From Coprinus comatus (lineage: Eukaryota > Basidiomycota > Agaricomycetes > Agaricales > Agaricaceae), in the NCBI GenBank assembly GCA_034638255.1, contig JAWPGT010000008.1:620001-684000 (forward strand): a stretch of DNA of 64,000 bases, given 5' to 3'. Every line of letters starts with the position of its first letter. The first letter of the stretch is position 1. Both the position numbers and the translations under genes were made by a program. A model generated the notes under the pieces. That model was given only the letters and a program-made list of their open reading frames with translations. It was not told the DNA's origin and made no database searches. Of the stretch, positions 28,215 through 38,507 are shown piece after piece.

Positions 28215-28766
28215 ATGCCCCCTAAAGTAACATCAGGCGGAAAGGCCAGGTCAAGCAATGCGCAACACGACAACAATGCCACAACACAACGGACTATACA
28301 AACCAGAAGCTCTCGTGCAGGACTGCAGGTGAGCTAACATTCGTCCTGTCTTGAGAAAAATGTTTATTCTTTGCAGTTTCCTGTTGGTCGTATACATCGT
28401 TACCTGAAGCAGAGGACGCAACATAACGTCCGTATCGGTGCTAAAGCTGCTGTCTACACCTCTGCTATTCTCGAGTACCTCACAGCTGAGGTTCTTGAGC
28501 TAGCTGGTAAGAAATTGTTACGCTTGCTTTCCACAATCTTTAACTTGTGCTGTTGTCCAGGTAACGCTTCTAAGGATCTCCGAGTCAAGCGTATTACTCC
28601 CCGCCATTTGCAGCTGGCTATCCGAGGAGACGAGGAACTAGATACCCTAGTACGCGCCACCATTGCAGGAGGTGGTGTTTTGCCTTTCATCCACAAGACC
28701 CTCACGTCAGGAGTCAACAAGGCTAATCCTAATATGTTGGTGAAGAAGCCTGACGGTAGTGCCTGA
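28215..28766 (+). CDS. htz1: Histone H2A.Z variant, three exons
   Basis: Replication-independent H2A variant placed by SWR1-type remodellers at promoters. Exons 28215-28328, 28377-28506 and 28561-28766 join in phase to 149 aa. The core is clear: [55 protein letters not shown] and the H2A.Z-type acidic patch [18 protein letters not shown]. The N-terminus has Lys and Ser residues after MPPK. Two oddities occur at the C-terminus. The usual PHIHK reads PFIHK, so one of two neighbouring His is lost, and an extended tail ([17 protein letters not shown]) replaces the ordinary short end. The first intron sits after LQ and the second within LAG. Confidence 0.94.
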
Positions 28767-29076
28767 TTGTTCGTATCTGTTGCTTATTGACTGTTTCTTT
28801 GTTCTTCGCATTTCTGTTCTATTTTGTTGATATCTGTATAGCGTAGGATGATATGTATTAGCAGACCATATCATCGTTCTAAGTTAGTTATCATTATTGA
28901 GTTTCTTGTCTATTTGTCAATGATTGGTTGTCTCAATCTCAAAATATCTCAACTGTTCGCCTCATCTCTCTCTCCAACACTCTACTATCACGTATGTCCT
29001 GTCCTGTCCGTCTATATGCTATTCTAATGACCCTCTAGGCTACATATTCAATACCCAGCCTATCCCAACGTTCACT
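28767..29076. other. H2A.Z 3' flank and leader of the next gene
   Basis: Short spacer between two plus-strand genes. A likely 5'-UTR intron runs from a GTATGTCC near 28993 to a CTCTAG near 29038. The open frame of the next gene extends back to 28924, but its first ATG is at 29077. Confidence 0.4.
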
Positions 29077-30870
29077 ATGTCCCCAGAACGCCCCACTTCA
29101 CGTAGTCCCTCCCTTGCATCAAAACCCTATACTCGCACATCCCAACCTGAAGATTCAGAGCCGAGTATCGCCCAGTCCGAATACCCTCATCCGCCAGAAC
29201 GGAGAGAGGTCGAAGGCGAGCAAGGGTTTCCTACAAAGGCGCAATACCAAATCATTGAACGAGGCTATATCGAGTCCCTGACACCACGCCGCCAAGGCAA
29301 AGCTCTTATATCTCAGGCACTCTTTGATAGAATCTGGGATGTCCTTCACAATAATGATAGTTCCAAGGAGAATGCGCAGTTTCGTTTCTGGGCTCGCAAG
29401 ATGTTTTCTTTGAGCAAGTCTCATACTGTTTCTCTTGGGGGAAACGGACCGCAACCTATGGAACAAGAAGTATTACTCCATGATGGACTGTTGGTCGCAG
29501 TTCGAGAACAGATCTATGACTTGTTATGTTATTGCCACGCGAGTACCAATCATGGTGGTCGGGACAAAACATGTGCTTTGATCCGTAAACATTATACTTG
29601 GGTACCTAAGGATCTCGTGGCTCAATTTATCAAAGCGTGTCCCACTTGTATCGTCAAGAAATGCGGACATTCGGACATTGGATTATTATCCCCTCATCTC
29701 AAGACTCGCTCGGGCTCTCCTGTTGCGTCGATTTCAAGCCAACTGACTCCTGAGGATACATCTTCTGATGCGATGTTTCGAGAATATTTCCACGATGCCG
29801 ATGGACAAGACGACCTCAATAGCCAAGAACCTTACTCTGTTCCCAGTACCCCTGTTGATACTCCTCATTCTCAGTTCACGCTCAACTCTGAATTTCTTAA
29901 TGGCCCTCCCGAGCAACTCAATCAATATGACCAGTTCTCTTCTAACAATGCTGGATCTCTCGGTGGCTTCCCGATGATGCGTGAAGTTTCACTATACAAT
30001 GGTCTCCCCAATGGTTGGCAGTATAAGGATATCAACTATAAGGACGCTCATGCCGAATGCGTGGAATATCAAAGGGTCGCACTAATAATGCCATATGATC
30101 CATCCCTCGGTCGCACACGCCCCAGGATTCCAAACGTTGTTCCTTTGTTTCGAGCTGATTTTGAGGACACGATGAATACGAAAGGCGAGGAAAGCGAATC
30201 TACTAGTACGATTGTGCAGCAAGGGTCTCCTCGAGAAAATGGATTCGACTCTCAACCGTTGTCACCGACTATGAGTTCCTACCTACAGAGTCCGACCATG
30301 GAGAATGACTTCCTGCCTATTGACCCGTTATTGCTTGCGCTTTCAGCTTCTATGCAGTCGTCGGCCGAAGAATCTTCTCCAGTAGATGTTTCTGTCATGT
30401 TTAATGATACCGAAATTACTCCTCGTCGTAACTCTGAAACTATAACTACCACCCACTCACTTCCACACTTGGATCTTGAATCGGTTAGAACATTCCAGGA
30501 TTTCCTTACATTCAGGGATGATCCTAATCTTTTGTCACCCGAGGAGCCGGAAATTAATGGGAAAGATATTTGGGAAAGTGTTAGTGGGGCTAATAGTCCG
30601 ACAAGTAGTGTTACCTCCGGTGCATCAGGCCTTTCGTTGGATGTTGCCTCCCCTATTGATGGTTCTGGATCACCTGATACACCTAGTTCAGCCTCCCCTA
30701 TCACGCCTATTGACGAGAACGGGAACGGACAAGTAAAAGTCAATGAGAAAGATGGCCATGTTGAACTCCAAGGAGAAGGGAATGAGAATGAGAATGAGGT
30801 TGCGAAATCGGTGGATTTGAATATTAATGAGGTTATTCAAGCTGTCTCGATTTGCGGCGTTCGTGGTTGA
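29077..30870 (+). CDS. Protein with integrase-type H2C2 zinc-binding domain, intronless
   Basis: One 597-aa frame starting MSPERPTSRS. Around residues 150-205 it contains an HHCC zinc-binding module of the kind found at the N-terminus of Ty3/gypsy integrases: HASTNHGGRDKT, then HYTWVPKDLVAQFIKACPTC. It has the His-x4-His spacing, the K-T after the second His, the aromatic-Trp strand and Cys-Pro-Thr-Cys. Nothing resembling reverse transcriptase, RNase H or the integrase catalytic D,D(35)E core follows. Instead there is a long Ser/Pro/Glu-rich region with the conserved-looking patches EYFHDADGQDDLNS and LNGPPEQLNQYDQFSSNN, ending in an acidic Asn/Glu-rich tail. It is most likely a host gene that has kept the zinc domain, perhaps a DNA- or chromatin-binding regulator. 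The function is not known to me. Confidence 0.75.
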   Translation: MSPERPTSRSPSLASKPYTRTSQPEDSEPSIAQSEYPHPPERREVEGEQGFPTKAQYQIIERGYIESLTPRRQGKALISQALFDRIWDVLHNNDSSKENAQFRFWARKMFSLSKSHTVSLGGNGPQPMEQEVLLHDGLLVAVREQIYDLLCYCHASTNHGGRDKTCALIRKHYTWVPKDLVAQFIKACPTCIVKKCGHSDIGLLSPHLKTRSGSPVASISSQLTPEDTSSDAMFREYFHDADGQDDLNSQEPYSVPSTPVDTPHSQFTLNSEFLNGPPEQLNQYDQFSSNNAGSLGGFPMMREVSLYNGLPNGWQYKDINYKDAHAECVEYQRVALIMPYDPSLGRTRPRIPNVVPLFRADFEDTMNTKGEESESTSTIVQQGSPRENGFDSQPLSPTMSSYLQSPTMENDFLPIDPLLLALSASMQSSAEESSPVDVSVMFNDTEITPRRNSETITTTHSLPHLDLESVRTFQDFLTFRDDPNLLSPEEPEINGKDIWESVSGANSPTSSVTSGASGLSLDVASPIDGSGSPDTPSSASPITPIDENGNGQVKVNEKDGHVELQGEGNENENEVAKSVDLNINEVIQAVSICGVRG

Positions 30871-31105: not shown

Positions 31106-31906
31106 TCAAGAACTCAATTGAGCACGACTGTTTTTGAATTATCCACATTAGCACTAGTATTAGGATGTCGCAGATTTAAGGAAAAATGAACGTACTCTCT
31201 GATGGTTTCATATAAGAATTGATAACTACGGAGGTTACCTTTCAGTCGGCGGATATCAAGACTGTAAGTATCATTGAGACCGGAAAGTCGTGTTAATTCG
31301 ACTGAAAATCGGACTTCGCCAGCAGGATCGCGGGATGTGTCGTTTGCGTAAATAGGATTGGTAATATTCTGTAAAAAGAGTAATAAAAAATTGGAGTGGT
31401 AAGTATGTAAAGTAAAACTCATTGGGGAGAGAACGTTCGTTTTAAAAAAAATTGTTACGTACATATTCCTCAGAACCAATAGTCTCGGATTCGGTGGTGT
31501 TGGTGTTGGAAGCAGGAGGACGAATGCATCGGTATCGATATGTACTTTCAGGTTGTACAGAGATTCCAATTGAATCTAAGATTATACGAACTTTGGACAT
31601 AACTTCGGTAGGTGGTCTTGTAGTTATGGTAGTATTATCTATTGCTCCTCTGTGTATTCCAATTATTGTACTTATAGTTCCTCCTCCTCCATTACTTTGG
31701 ATACCACCAGATTGAGTGGAACTGGCATTGGAAAGAAGAGAGAGGTTTGAAGTTGATGTACGAAGAGATGATGAAGTGAATGATGGGTATGAGTTGAGTG
31801 GATGATGAGGAGTGTTGTTGGGATTTGGAGTGTTATTTATGGTGTTGTTGGGAAGTGTCATGTTTCTGATATTGGTTGTTGAAGGTGAGGAATGTAAAGT
31901 AGTCAT
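31106..31906 (-). CDS. Stand-alone KA1-domain protein, duplicated from the Kin4-like kinase
   Basis: Three exons on the minus strand. Exon 1 runs from the ATG ending at 31906 (MTTLHSS) to a donor GTACGTAAC after SEEY (about 31462). Exon 2 starts NITNPIY and ends at the donor GTACGTTC after ETIR. The last exon encodes DRAQLSS with its stop at 31106-31108. After an Asn/Thr/Ser-rich N-terminus the protein carries a kinase-associated 1 domain: HRGAIDNTTITTRPPTEVM, SKVRIILDSIGISVQPE, YRYRCIRP, then EVRFSVELTRLSGLNDTYS and LDIRRLKGNLRSYQFLYET. These match the C-terminus of the kinase at 33909-37733 almost residue for residue, including the last intron position. No kinase domain precedes it. KA1 domains bind acidic phospholipids and the plasma membrane, so a membrane-binding competitor or targeting partner is a possible role (inference). 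Confidence 0.75.
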
Positions 31907-33094: not shown

Positions 33095-33187
33095 GCCCGC
33101 CTAGCTCAATCGGATAGAGCGTCAGACTCTTATGTCTACTAGGGCACTGATATCTGAAGGCTGCGAGTTCGACCCTCGCGGTGGGCT
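33095..33187 (+). tRNA. tRNA-Lys (anticodon CTT) with intron
   Basis: All arms can be drawn. The acceptor stem is GCCCGCC with GGTGGGC (one G-T pair). The D arm is GCTC/GAGC, the anticodon stem TCAGA/TCTGA with anticodon CTT at 33129-33131, and the T arm GCGAG-TTCGACC-CTCGC, with internal promoter boxes in the usual places (TAGCTCAATCGG and GAGTTCGACCC). A 19-nt intron (33133-33151) follows the base after the anticodon, the canonical site for tRNA introns. The discriminator is T at 33187. It decodes AAG lysine codons. Confidence 0.95.
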
Positions 33188-33908: not shown

Positions 33909-36900
33909 TTAATGGCATAGACTTTGCAAATCGGCACGTCTAGATAGAACAGAAAAAAAAAAATCACCAATCAGAAAATCATATCCAAAAGAAAAAGAGA
34001 ATAAAACTCACTGTCGAATTGTATCATACAAAAATTTATAACTCCTCAAATTTCCCTTTAACCTTCTAATATCCAAACTAAACGTATCATTCAACCCAGA
34101 AATTCTCGTCAGCTCCACACTAAACCTAACTTCGTCACCGGCATCTTGAGTAGGATCTCCATATGCAGTTTCTTGTAAAACAACCGCATTCGTATTTGTA
34201 TTCAATGGATTAGGAGTTTCAGCGACTGGCGTAGAAGGAGAGATGACTACAGATGATTCATCATCGAATGCCAAGGAATTTGGGTTTAGAGTGTTTGTGT
34301 TGATTGTGGGTGGCTGGTTAGGTAAAGGTGGATGATGGTGTGAAGGTGATGGATTTGAAGAATGTGTGATACTTGTGATGATTGACGACGCATGAGTAAT
34401 CCTCTAAGCATATTACCTGTAGATCCAAATGAAGTTTGAGTAGGAAGTGGAAGACCGCGTTTATCAACCTAGCAACAATTCATCTTCAGTATAAAGTCTC
34501 ACATAGGAGGAAGAAAGAAGGAACGTACCCCACTAGATGCAGCACTTCCAATCATATTAAACACAGCAACATCCCCATCCTTTCCGTCTTTCCCATTCGC
34601 AATTTGGGTAGCTTGAACACCTACTACGCCCTTCTTCTTCTTAACCCTTACACACCTATACTTATATTCACTCTCAAGCGCAATCTCCATTCCCATCCCT
34701 TCCAAAATCTCCTTAACATGACTCATAACTTCAGGTGGATTCCTCTGAGTAATAGTGGTTTGGTCAACAGCACCATGATGGATTCTCAATTGTCCATAAG
34801 GGTGTTGAGCTGCCAATTGTTGTTGTTGCGCCTGCGCTTGTTGATGATGATGTTTGTTGGATCCACCAACAGTAACCGAGTTCCTAAACCTTTGAACAAA
34901 GTTTGGTGTAGAGAAAGCACTGTTAGAACCATCAGTAGCGGTCGAAGTGCTTCTCTTGCCCATTGCCGGAGCAACGATAGGTGCTTGAGGAATTGGATTC
35001 GGGAAGCTGGTAGTGGTAGCAGTAGGTGTGGTTACTGTCAATTCAACACCTGCGGGATTGGTAGGCGTTGGTTCATCGTCTCTTCCACCATTTTGAGCAG
35101 TACCCATAGATTCTCTACCTTTCGATTTAGTCCTGAACCAAGCCATAACATTCCTAGCTTTATTAGTTGAAGCAGGCATTCCATTTCCATCCCTGTCATT
35201 TTCTCCTTCGTGCATCTCGTAGGATTCAGTGGTGTTGTTGCTTCCAGGTGTGACCGCACTCTGCGGAGCTTTGTTACTAGAAGTAGCAGATGCATTGGAA
35301 GGCAAAGGAGGTGCGAGTGAGGCACTCGATACGTTAGAAGGTGTAGTAGATGATTTCTTTCCACGTCCACGAATAGTGCGTGAGATAGGTTCAACCATAA
35401 CCGTCAGGGTATTCCTCCTTGACTTCCTCCCACTCTTCTCCTTCTCTTTCTCCTTCTCCTTCTCCTTTCCTTCAGGCGAGTGGGTAGTTAACATAGACGA
35501 AGCCTCAGAAGGAACCCTACTCGTAATTGCCACAGGACTAGTCAAACTATCAACAACAGGACCAGCGACCGTTCCACTGGCACTGGCATTTCCACCACCA
35601 AATATTTTAGCAAATCCAAACTTATCCAAAGAAGATTTTCCTTTCTGATGTCCACTCTTCCTCGTCGATGAGGTTCGAGACGTCTGACTTCCCGTTTCCT
35701 TATCCCGTTCCTTGGTATCAGATCGAATCGATTGCGCGGGGGTATCTGGGGTAGCGGGTGGAGTACTAACACTGAAAGTGGGTATTTCTTTATGACTTTG
35801 GGATGGTGTAGCTTGGTATGTGTTTCGACCAGAAGCAGGTATTTGTGATTTTGGAGTAACAGGTCCTTGAGCTGCAGGTGCGAATGGTAAAGGTTTTTGT
35901 CCAGTGCTCGGTTTCCTGTCCCTTGGTGAAGACCTCGTGGGGGGATTAGCGGTACGATTGAATTGTTGAGTATTTTGCTCGATACTTTGCCTGCCTCCAC
36001 GACGCTCCTCGCTCGGCCTACCGCCTTGGGGTTCATCATATTCCACTTGAATAGTATGCCTAAATCCGCTACCACCACTGTTGCTGCTCCTATGGCCATT
36101 GGGAGACTGTGATTTGGATTCAACGATGCTATTACTAGCTCTTGATGACGAGGTTGGTTGTTCCTCTGATGTCCTGGAAGTAGCAACGCCAGCGCTGGTA
36201 AGTGATTGACCGACAGGAGCAAATGGATCGTCCGAGGTGATGCCATGAGCTGTGGGACTTCCATATGTAGGTTTCCTAGCATTATTACCAGGGGTAGAAG
36301 GAGTAACAATTTTCGCGGGTAGAGGTGAAGAAGCAGTTTGTGTCATGGCCTGTTCAGCAGGCGATTCATACAACATTTCGGGCTGTGTAGACCGACTGCG
36401 ACTTGTAGTAGCACCGGTATGAGTAGCTTCTCTACCATGAGCTGGACGTGGAATCTGGCTTGCAGCAGCAGCATTACGCATCTGGCGTTGATAAGCGAGT
36501 CGGCGTTGTTGATGTTGGTCCAAAGCTGCGCGTTCAAGCTCTTCAACAGACTTTCCGAATGCATTGGGAATTCCATCGGTTCGAAGGCCACCGAAATGTG
36601 CTGATAACCACCGATGACGCATGATACTGTCGAGATTGGCGCGACGGGTCGGGTCAGGGACGAGCATTATGCTGAGAAGGTCCCTGGCCTCTGTAGAAAT
36701 GTAATCTGGAAAAGACAGGGGGGTGCTGACGATGTACTTGTACAACAAGTTGATGTTATCACCGTCTGGATTGGCGGGATCATCATCAAATGGCAGATAG
36801 CCAGCAAGCATAGCGTAAAGGATGACGCCGCAGCTCCAGATATCAACGGCACTTCCGACGTATAGACCTTCGCTGATGACAAGTTCAGGGGCAGCGTAGC

Positions 36901-37733
36901 ATGGGCTGCCACAACTGGTTTGCATCAAATCATCTGCTTTGTGTTCAAACCTATTCGCAAAGCCAAAGTCTGTGATGATGACGTTTCTGTGTCGATCCAG
37001 TAGCAAGTTTTCGAGTTTGAGGTCACGATGGACAATTTTCTTCTGATGGATGTACCAGACACCGGAGATGAGTTGTGAGAATAATTTGGCGGCATCCCGT
37101 TCCTTGAGATAGCGGTGGGCGAGGATGTGGTCAAAGAGTTCGCCACCAGACGCAAACTCGATGATGATACCGATATATTTATCGGTCTCGATGACATCGT
37201 AGAGACGTACGATGTTTGGATGCTTGAGGGCCTAGGAAAAGGGGATTAGATATGGTTATGGGAAATGGGTGAGTGCATACCCGAAGGACCTCGATCTCTC
37301 GTTCGACCTTGGAGAGACGAACGGCATTGTCGACGTTGCCGCGCCTGATGAGCTTGACTGCAACTTCTTCGCCCCATTGGGTATGGATACCGAGCTTTAC
37401 CTTACCAAACTCACCCTCTCCAAGGGTTTGCAGAAGGAGGTAGGGGCCGAAACGGGGGATAGTGCGGCGGGGATGTGCAGCGGAGTAAGCTACGACTGCA
37501 GGGTGTGCATAAACATCAGGATATGGGGAATTTCCGTCTTCAGCTTGCTGTGAGGGCGATGCGACCGAGTGTGAGGCGCGTTGCTGTCTGCGAGTGGCTG
37601 TTGGGGTATTAATCGAGGCAGGATTTTGGTGTACGGCAGCAGAGACTGGACGTGATGCCGCGGACGATGAGGAATATGATGAGGGTGGGATCTGGAGGCT
37701 TGCTGCCGCTGTGTTGGACGACGAGGAAGCCAT
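33909..37733 (-). CDS. Kin4-like Ser/Thr protein kinase (CAMKL) with C-terminal KA1 domain
   Basis: Protein kinase of the CAMK-like branch related to Kin4 and to Kin1/MARK, families that control polarity and mitotic exit. The ATG ending at 37733 (MASSSSNTAA) gives a product of about 1,200 aa; an in-frame ATG at 37814 is less likely. Exon 1 ends after EREIEVLR near 37280, and the next begins ALKHPNIVRLYDVIE. The kinase domain spans about residues 96-360, with glycine loop GEGEFGKVKLG (105-115), Lys127 in VAVKLI, catalytic HRDLKLEN (219-226), DFG (239-241), activation loop SCGSPCYAAPEL and WSCGVILYAML. A long disordered Ser/Pro/Thr-rich middle holds a basic patch. The KA1 domain is split over the last three exons: HHGAVDQTTITQRNPPEVM, YKYRCVRVKKKK, FSVELTRISGLNDTFSLDI and the end RQRADLQSLCH, stop at 33909-33911. 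An orphan copy of KA1 lies at 31106-31906. Confidence 0.92.
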
Positions 37734-38313: not shown

Positions 38314-38507
38314 CTCGTATAGGAGGATAGAGGCTAGATCCCAAAAACGGACAAAAAGTAGGTATTTTTGGGGAATCAAAAAACCTTTTTGGATCGCAAC
38401 GACGAGAAACGCACGAATTCAATGTTAGAAAGCATGGGAAAATTCGACGACCGGACAAATTTGGGATCCAGCCTCTATCAGGATATTCAGAGGTCCTCGT
38501 ATAGGAG
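38314..38507. repeat. Inverted-repeat element flanked by 12-nt direct repeats (MITE-like)
   Basis: CTCGTATAGGAG occurs at 38314-38325 and again at 38496-38507. Just inside, GATAGAGGCTAGATCCCA (38326-38343) is the reverse complement, with 17 of 18 matches, of 38462-38479. About 118 nt lie between the arms. The arrangement resembles a small non-autonomous element or its footprint. There is no transposase and no second copy in this window. Confidence 0.5.

Follow-up and report, generated by a model that had tools for sequence, protein, structure and literature searches.

KA1 tails position kinases at the membrane and keep them off elsewhere, and microProteins are small single-domain regulators derived from larger proteins; we know of no KA1 or kinase-tail microProtein. 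In MARK1 and PAR-1 (PF02149; PDB 3ose, 6c9d) the KA1 domain is the tail of the kinase itself, whereas in the 64,000-nucleotide (nt) stretch of the Coprinus comatus genome analyzed here (the window) it forms a protein of its own, with a distinct N-terminus, encoded beside a Kin4/Frk1-like kinase. In Caenorhabditis elegans, the PAR-1 KA1 domain supplied in trans lowers the activity of PAR-1 without KA1, mutation of K1170/R1171 (equivalent to MARK1 K773/R774) abolishes this trans effect, and the basic residues for phospholipid binding are also required in autoinhibition (PMC6451319). Cortical localization of yeast Kin4 requires its C-terminus including F793 (PMC3004881). A KA1 fold outside a kinase polypeptide occurs as part of another enzyme, which binds U6 snRNA according to the titles of its structures; the match to it is much weaker than that to MARK1.

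The small gene occupies positions 31106-31906 of the window on the minus strand. In this interval a KA1 protein that stands by itself is encoded by an undamaged gene model with three exons, GT-AG introns and 212 amino acids (aa) followed by a stop codon at the end of the interval:

31463..31906, minus strand: exon 1, start codon at 31906; Ser/Thr/Asn-rich N-terminus, then the first half of KA1
31369..31462, minus strand: intron 1, 94 nt, phase 0, GTACGT...TTACAG
31196..31368, minus strand: exon 2, second half of KA1, EVRFSVELTR...TIR
31246..31251, minus strand: codons of R188-R189, equivalent to MARK1 K773-R774
31128..31195, minus strand: intron 2, 68 nt, phase 2, GTACGT...AACAG, at the codon position of the last intron of the kinase
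31106..31127, minus strand: exon 3, 22 nt, with the last base of the split codon, RAQLSS and the stop; end of the last KA1 helix

The KA1 module begins at residue 85 (window position 31654), inside exon 1, and the Pfam KA1 match covers residues 166-207 with 29.5 bits against a cut-off of 23. Pfam shows KA1 only in this protein and no kinase catalytic domain. The original prediction, made from the sequence without database searches, had proposed a complete stand-alone KA1 gene, and the spliced three-exon model together with the Pfam match bears this out. Orthologue records P0001-P0004 finish in RDRAQL, matching the end predicted from the 22-nt last exon, and P0005 and P0006 end at or run beyond IRE, as though this exon had been overlooked. 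No second allele or other close copy of the small gene was found in its own genome. The same own-genome search recovered two KA1 exons with equal scores on separate contigs (C46:190117-190218 and C77:22011-22112); the C46 exon resembles a MARK tail, and the pair represents either a duplicate gene or an unmerged haplotype.

The small protein has the KA1 fold, with a helix, four strands and a C-terminal helix. A PDB sequence search with the protein gave no match and a search with profile A1 returned only two SUMO-type chains (E ~1), so that the link to solved KA1 domains comes from the fold and not from sequence search. The basic pair R188-R189 (IRRLKG) corresponds to MARK1 K773-R774 (FKRISG), a placement obtained by counting back from the aligned end and from the MARK sequence.

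The neighboring kinase lies on the same strand, head to tail with the small gene, which begins 2.0 kb past the kinase end:

33909..37733, minus strand: Kin4/Frk1-like kinase, five-exon model, 1194 aa
37733-37281, 37231-34529, 34468-34373, 34313-34012 and 33939-33909, minus strand: exons of the kinase model
33940..34011, minus strand: last intron of the kinase, 72 nt, phase 2

The intron at 34372-34314 was picked from five candidates for its fit to relatives. The model contains a full Pkinase domain (100-360) and its own KA1 (1145-1183, 24.5 bits), and the solved structures that score best against its kinase domain are MARK, AMPK and Snf1. Among the source names of relatives are CAMK/CAMKL/Kin4 and Fatty acyl-CoA synthetase and RNA processing-associated kinase 1, the latter of which we take to be Frk1; the Kin4/Frk1 identity follows these source names, and a CAMKL-type kinase domain and C-terminal KA1 are present.

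The small protein shares with such kinases of Agaricomycetes the KA1 module, the N-terminal HxGA[VI]D motif and the position of the last intron, but differs in lacking a kinase domain and the VDKRGLP...RRQSSQ exon and in having another basic stretch after RC[IV]R. The block FSVELTRxSGLNDTxSLDIRR is common to both genes, and the last intron interrupts the same codon in phase 2 (RQ|RADLQSLCH in the kinase, RD|RAQLSS in the small gene) before a tiny last exon. The block, the 2 kb gap and the last intron position thus agree with the alignment to the kinase C-terminus described in the original prediction. Its argument from shared introns stands for the last intron and not for the first: in the kinase model two phase-0 introns flank the VDKRGLP...RRQSSQ exon, so that intron 1 of the small gene cannot be assigned to either one. 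Since the last intron is shared and the two genes lie head to tail on one strand, we conclude that the small gene arose when the 3' end of the Kin4/Frk1-like kinase gene was duplicated at the DNA level.

The age of this duplication was addressed with protein searches, for which the best 120 of 251, 323 and 443 matches were listed, and with trees of about 102 columns and 125, 58 and 70 selected rows, mostly those with a species name. Among the best 120 of the 251 matches are many Agaricales proteins of ~110-320 aa that typically carry HRGAI, and the other listed matches are short kinase-tail pieces, typically with HHGAV. Many KA1-only proteins among the listed matches bear the UniRef label "non-specific serine/threonine protein kinase", with KA1 as their sole listed domain. 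In the 125-row tree the window gene falls inside a group composed entirely of short proteins (37 rows, support 85 in the Shimodaira-Hasegawa-like approximate likelihood ratio test, SH-aLRT), which takes in four long-branched Peniophora and Pterulicium rows; several short database entries of other orders cluster with the kinases. The 24 Agaricales KA1-only rows of the 58-row tree form one clade (support 97/95), and a grouping of Agaricaceae KA1-only rows with Agaricaceae kinases is rejected by the approximately unbiased (AU) test (p-AU 0.013), the groups for these tests having been defined after the 125-row tree was inspected. In the 70-row tree, for which the bootstrap had not settled, the Agaricales KA1-only group (92/97) has three long-branched Thelephora rows inside it, so that in this tree the Agaricales rows by themselves do not form a single clade; the position of Thelephora may be due to attraction. 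The duplication therefore predates the split of the sampled Agaricales, namely Agaricaceae, Coprinopsis and kin, Pholiota and kin, Lyophyllum and kin, Volvariella and Amanita. The proposal that the gene was copied from the neighboring kinase holds as paralogy but not as a copy specific to this genome, since orthologues span the Agaricales and the AU test rejects the Agaricaceae grouping.

The two copies in the window are identical at 64 of 91 aligned residues, while their third positions agree at 27%. This likeness is not due to chance: in a simple simulation of neutral drift to an equal third-position divergence, run 200 times, amino-acid identity averaged 8% and never exceeded 20% (uniform substitution starting from the kinase copy, with the pairwise comparison averaging both lineages). 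From EVRFSVELTR onward 40 of 48 residues are identical, but only 11 of those 40 codons are, and none of the 8 fourfold sites in the shared block agrees, so that the SGLNDT stretch does not reflect recent sharing. The NG86 method gave no finite synonymous divergence (dS) for the pair. A recent copy is ruled out by the tree, the AU test and the saturated synonymous sites, and gene conversion between the two copies has left no nucleotide trace at the fourfold sites of the block. Conserved amino acids beside saturated synonymous sites speak for an old gene under protein-level selection that has been retained since the duplication. In the 18 genomes that have both genes, counting the window, KA1-only proteins are on average 66% identical to one another and kinase KA1 modules 81%, and a KA1-only protein and a kinase module share 64% on average.

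The KA1-only protein and the kinase are encoded on the same contig in 17 of the 19 Agaricales species tallied outside Mycena and Pleurotus. This was called from the identical size of the two contigs in the best-120 listings, with strand and exact order unseen, and the tally leaves out Pleurotus eryngii, whose pair shares a contig but belongs to another clade, and Agaricus H97, where the kinase is present only as a fragment, on the same contig. The two genes carry consecutive locus tags in Agaricus bisporus var. burnettii (11586/11587), Tricholomella (7962/7961), Sphagnurus (4557/4558) and Candolleomyces (g3305/g3306), as well as in Crucibulum (724015/724016), though numbering there need not be positional; those of Amanita inopinata are nine apart (3046/3037). 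A shared contig, a proxy for the synteny in related Agaricales that was suggested at the outset as a check on the gene, is found in most but not all of the species tallied.

Thelephora, Pterulicium and Peniophora likewise have KA1-only proteins that begin with a start of their own. Mycena KA1-only rows group with Mycena kinases in the 70-row tree (83/79) and with a Piloderma fragment in the 125-row tree (91), and the Pleurotus KA1-only proteins P0112 and P0113 group with the Pleurotus kinase P0184 (100/98, 70-row tree). The AU test does not reject a single origin of all KA1-only proteins (p-AU 0.092, 70-row tree), Pleurotus with Agaricales (0.091, 70-row tree) or Mycena with Agaricales (0.246, 58-row tree), and the argument for repeated origin is accordingly drawn from tree position only. 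On these grounds we suggest, tentatively and at somewhat below even confidence, that the KA1 tail was freed as a separate gene several times in mushroom-forming fungi, making a trans-acting brake or membrane competitor of the kinase. In this reading the Agaricales gene is old and widespread, and those of Mycena and its kin and of Pleurotus are probably separate. In P. eryngii the KA1-only gene and the kinase are on contigs of one size. P0089 from P. ostreatus PC15 has a kinase-like first half and a KA1-only-like second half and is perhaps a merged gene model. P0252, P0253, P0255, P0257 and P0259, from Thelephora and relatives, form a short KA1-only family on a long branch with a similar start (~FGI..HQGAVDPSTVT). 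Peniophora P0110 and P0111 have a hydrophobic N-terminal stretch that by eye resembles a membrane anchor, and their KA1 scores fall just below the Pfam cut-off.

The best explanation overall, which we hold with evenly balanced confidence, is that the KA1-only gene, shown here to be an old and retained duplicate of the kinase 3' end, would influence in trans the pathway in which its parent kinase works. The PAR-1 and Kin4 precedents suggest that a free KA1 would compete for membrane sites or dock on the catalytic domain. The module may take up the acidic-phospholipid sites through which the kinase is held at the membrane, it may bind the kinase domain in the manner of the kinase's own KA1, or both; by either route kinase activity would be lowered or relocated, and the fast-evolving N-terminus could set where or when the protein acts. 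Such trans regulation or membrane competition, already raised in the original prediction, is sensible as a hypothesis, with the C. elegans PAR-1 KA1 domain in trans as its precedent (PMC6451319). The likeness to microProteins lies in one interaction domain kept, the catalytic part lost, and the trans action on the parent family that is proposed here.

Several points weigh against action on the kinase. The arginine pair serves both lipid binding and kinase inhibition and so does not tell the two routes apart, and its conservation is just as high in the kinases. The KA1-only proteins of the three Agaricaceae compared lack the KKKK/KRRK cluster found after RC[IV]R in the kinases. Because a free KA1 has to compete with its tethered counterpart, it needs a high local concentration; in the worm, KA1 contributes to polarized PAR-1 activity yet is dispensable in zygotes. 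KA1-only proteins evolve ~2.1 times faster than kinase KA1 modules (median rate ratio 2.1, 18 genomes). Conserved linkage can be explained by plain inheritance, and it has exceptions in Ephemerocybe angulata, whose two records may come from different assemblies, and in Amanita thiersii; Mycena KA1-only genes lie on the kinase's contig in 0 of 6 cases, so that the measure is able to fail.

The main rival is a kinase-independent membrane adaptor, in which KA1 would bring the variable tail at the N-terminus, together with its partners, to acidic membranes and leave the kinase unaffected. We consider it possible without favoring it: the KA1-only proteins have their own rate and their own signature (HRGAI versus HHGAV in most kinases), the Mycena copies are off the kinase's contig, and the Peniophora proteins carry the hydrophobic stretch seen by eye, but the linkage in 17 of 19 species speaks against independence, though inheritance alone can maintain it, and the N-terminus is unalignable beyond close relatives, so that a conserved cargo is not evident. 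It is improbable that the gene is longer at its N-terminus, with the reading frame spliced to an unrecognized upstream exon. The low-complexity stretch at the N-terminus lacks conservation and the length of automated models varies, but upstream of the ATG there is an in-frame stop at -27, the nearest AG is at -56 and a TATATA at -108, and many orthologues have a Met just 5-30 residues ahead of HRGAID. The stop and the distant AG argue against a coding exon spliced before the ATG; this argument covers joins before the ATG and does not extend to splicing into a site within exon 1. A decaying fragment or mis-annotated piece of the kinase is very improbable, since frames and splice sites are intact, orthologues occur across Agaricales, amino acids are conserved against saturated synonymous sites and the kinase gene possesses its own KA1 exons, even though Suillus lakei P0263 and Scleroderma P0266 look by eye like degenerating copies, short database entries from other orders group with kinases and many small proteins are named kinases in UniRef.

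The interval between the two genes and their surroundings contain further features:

33095..33187, plus strand: tRNA gene between the KA1-only gene and the kinase, called by ARAGORN with its type undetermined; intron-containing by reading
38327-38504, upstream of the kinase: ~170 bp repeat with genome copies up to 92% identical
28924-30870, plus strand: single-exon open reading frame, ~600 aa from the first plausible Met, with an Integrase_H2C2 zinc-binding domain
28215-28766, plus strand: intron-containing histone H2A-type gene (start by reading), with core and C-terminal H2A matches in the tested stretch

Nine similar copies of the tRNA gene lie on contig C8 at 860-935 kb, and others elsewhere. 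The Integrase_H2C2 reading frame is convergent with the KA1-only gene and possibly encodes a domesticated retroelement protein.

In the literature searched, largely freely readable papers, we found no description of a free-standing KA1 gene in fungi. The term KA1 is absent from a Kin4 paper (PMC10522413) and from a paper on the kinome of the agaricomycete Wolfiporia cocos, in which a KIN4 homologue is given (PMC5030230). The domain is already known, and what appears to be new is a conserved separate KA1 gene beside its parent kinase. A good number of the database entries that are labeled serine/threonine kinase have no catalytic domain and are KA1-only proteins. If the proposed action is true, this gene would provide a natural example of a kinase tail exerting control in trans, and if repeated origins are confirmed, they would point to selection for splitting the tail from the kinase.
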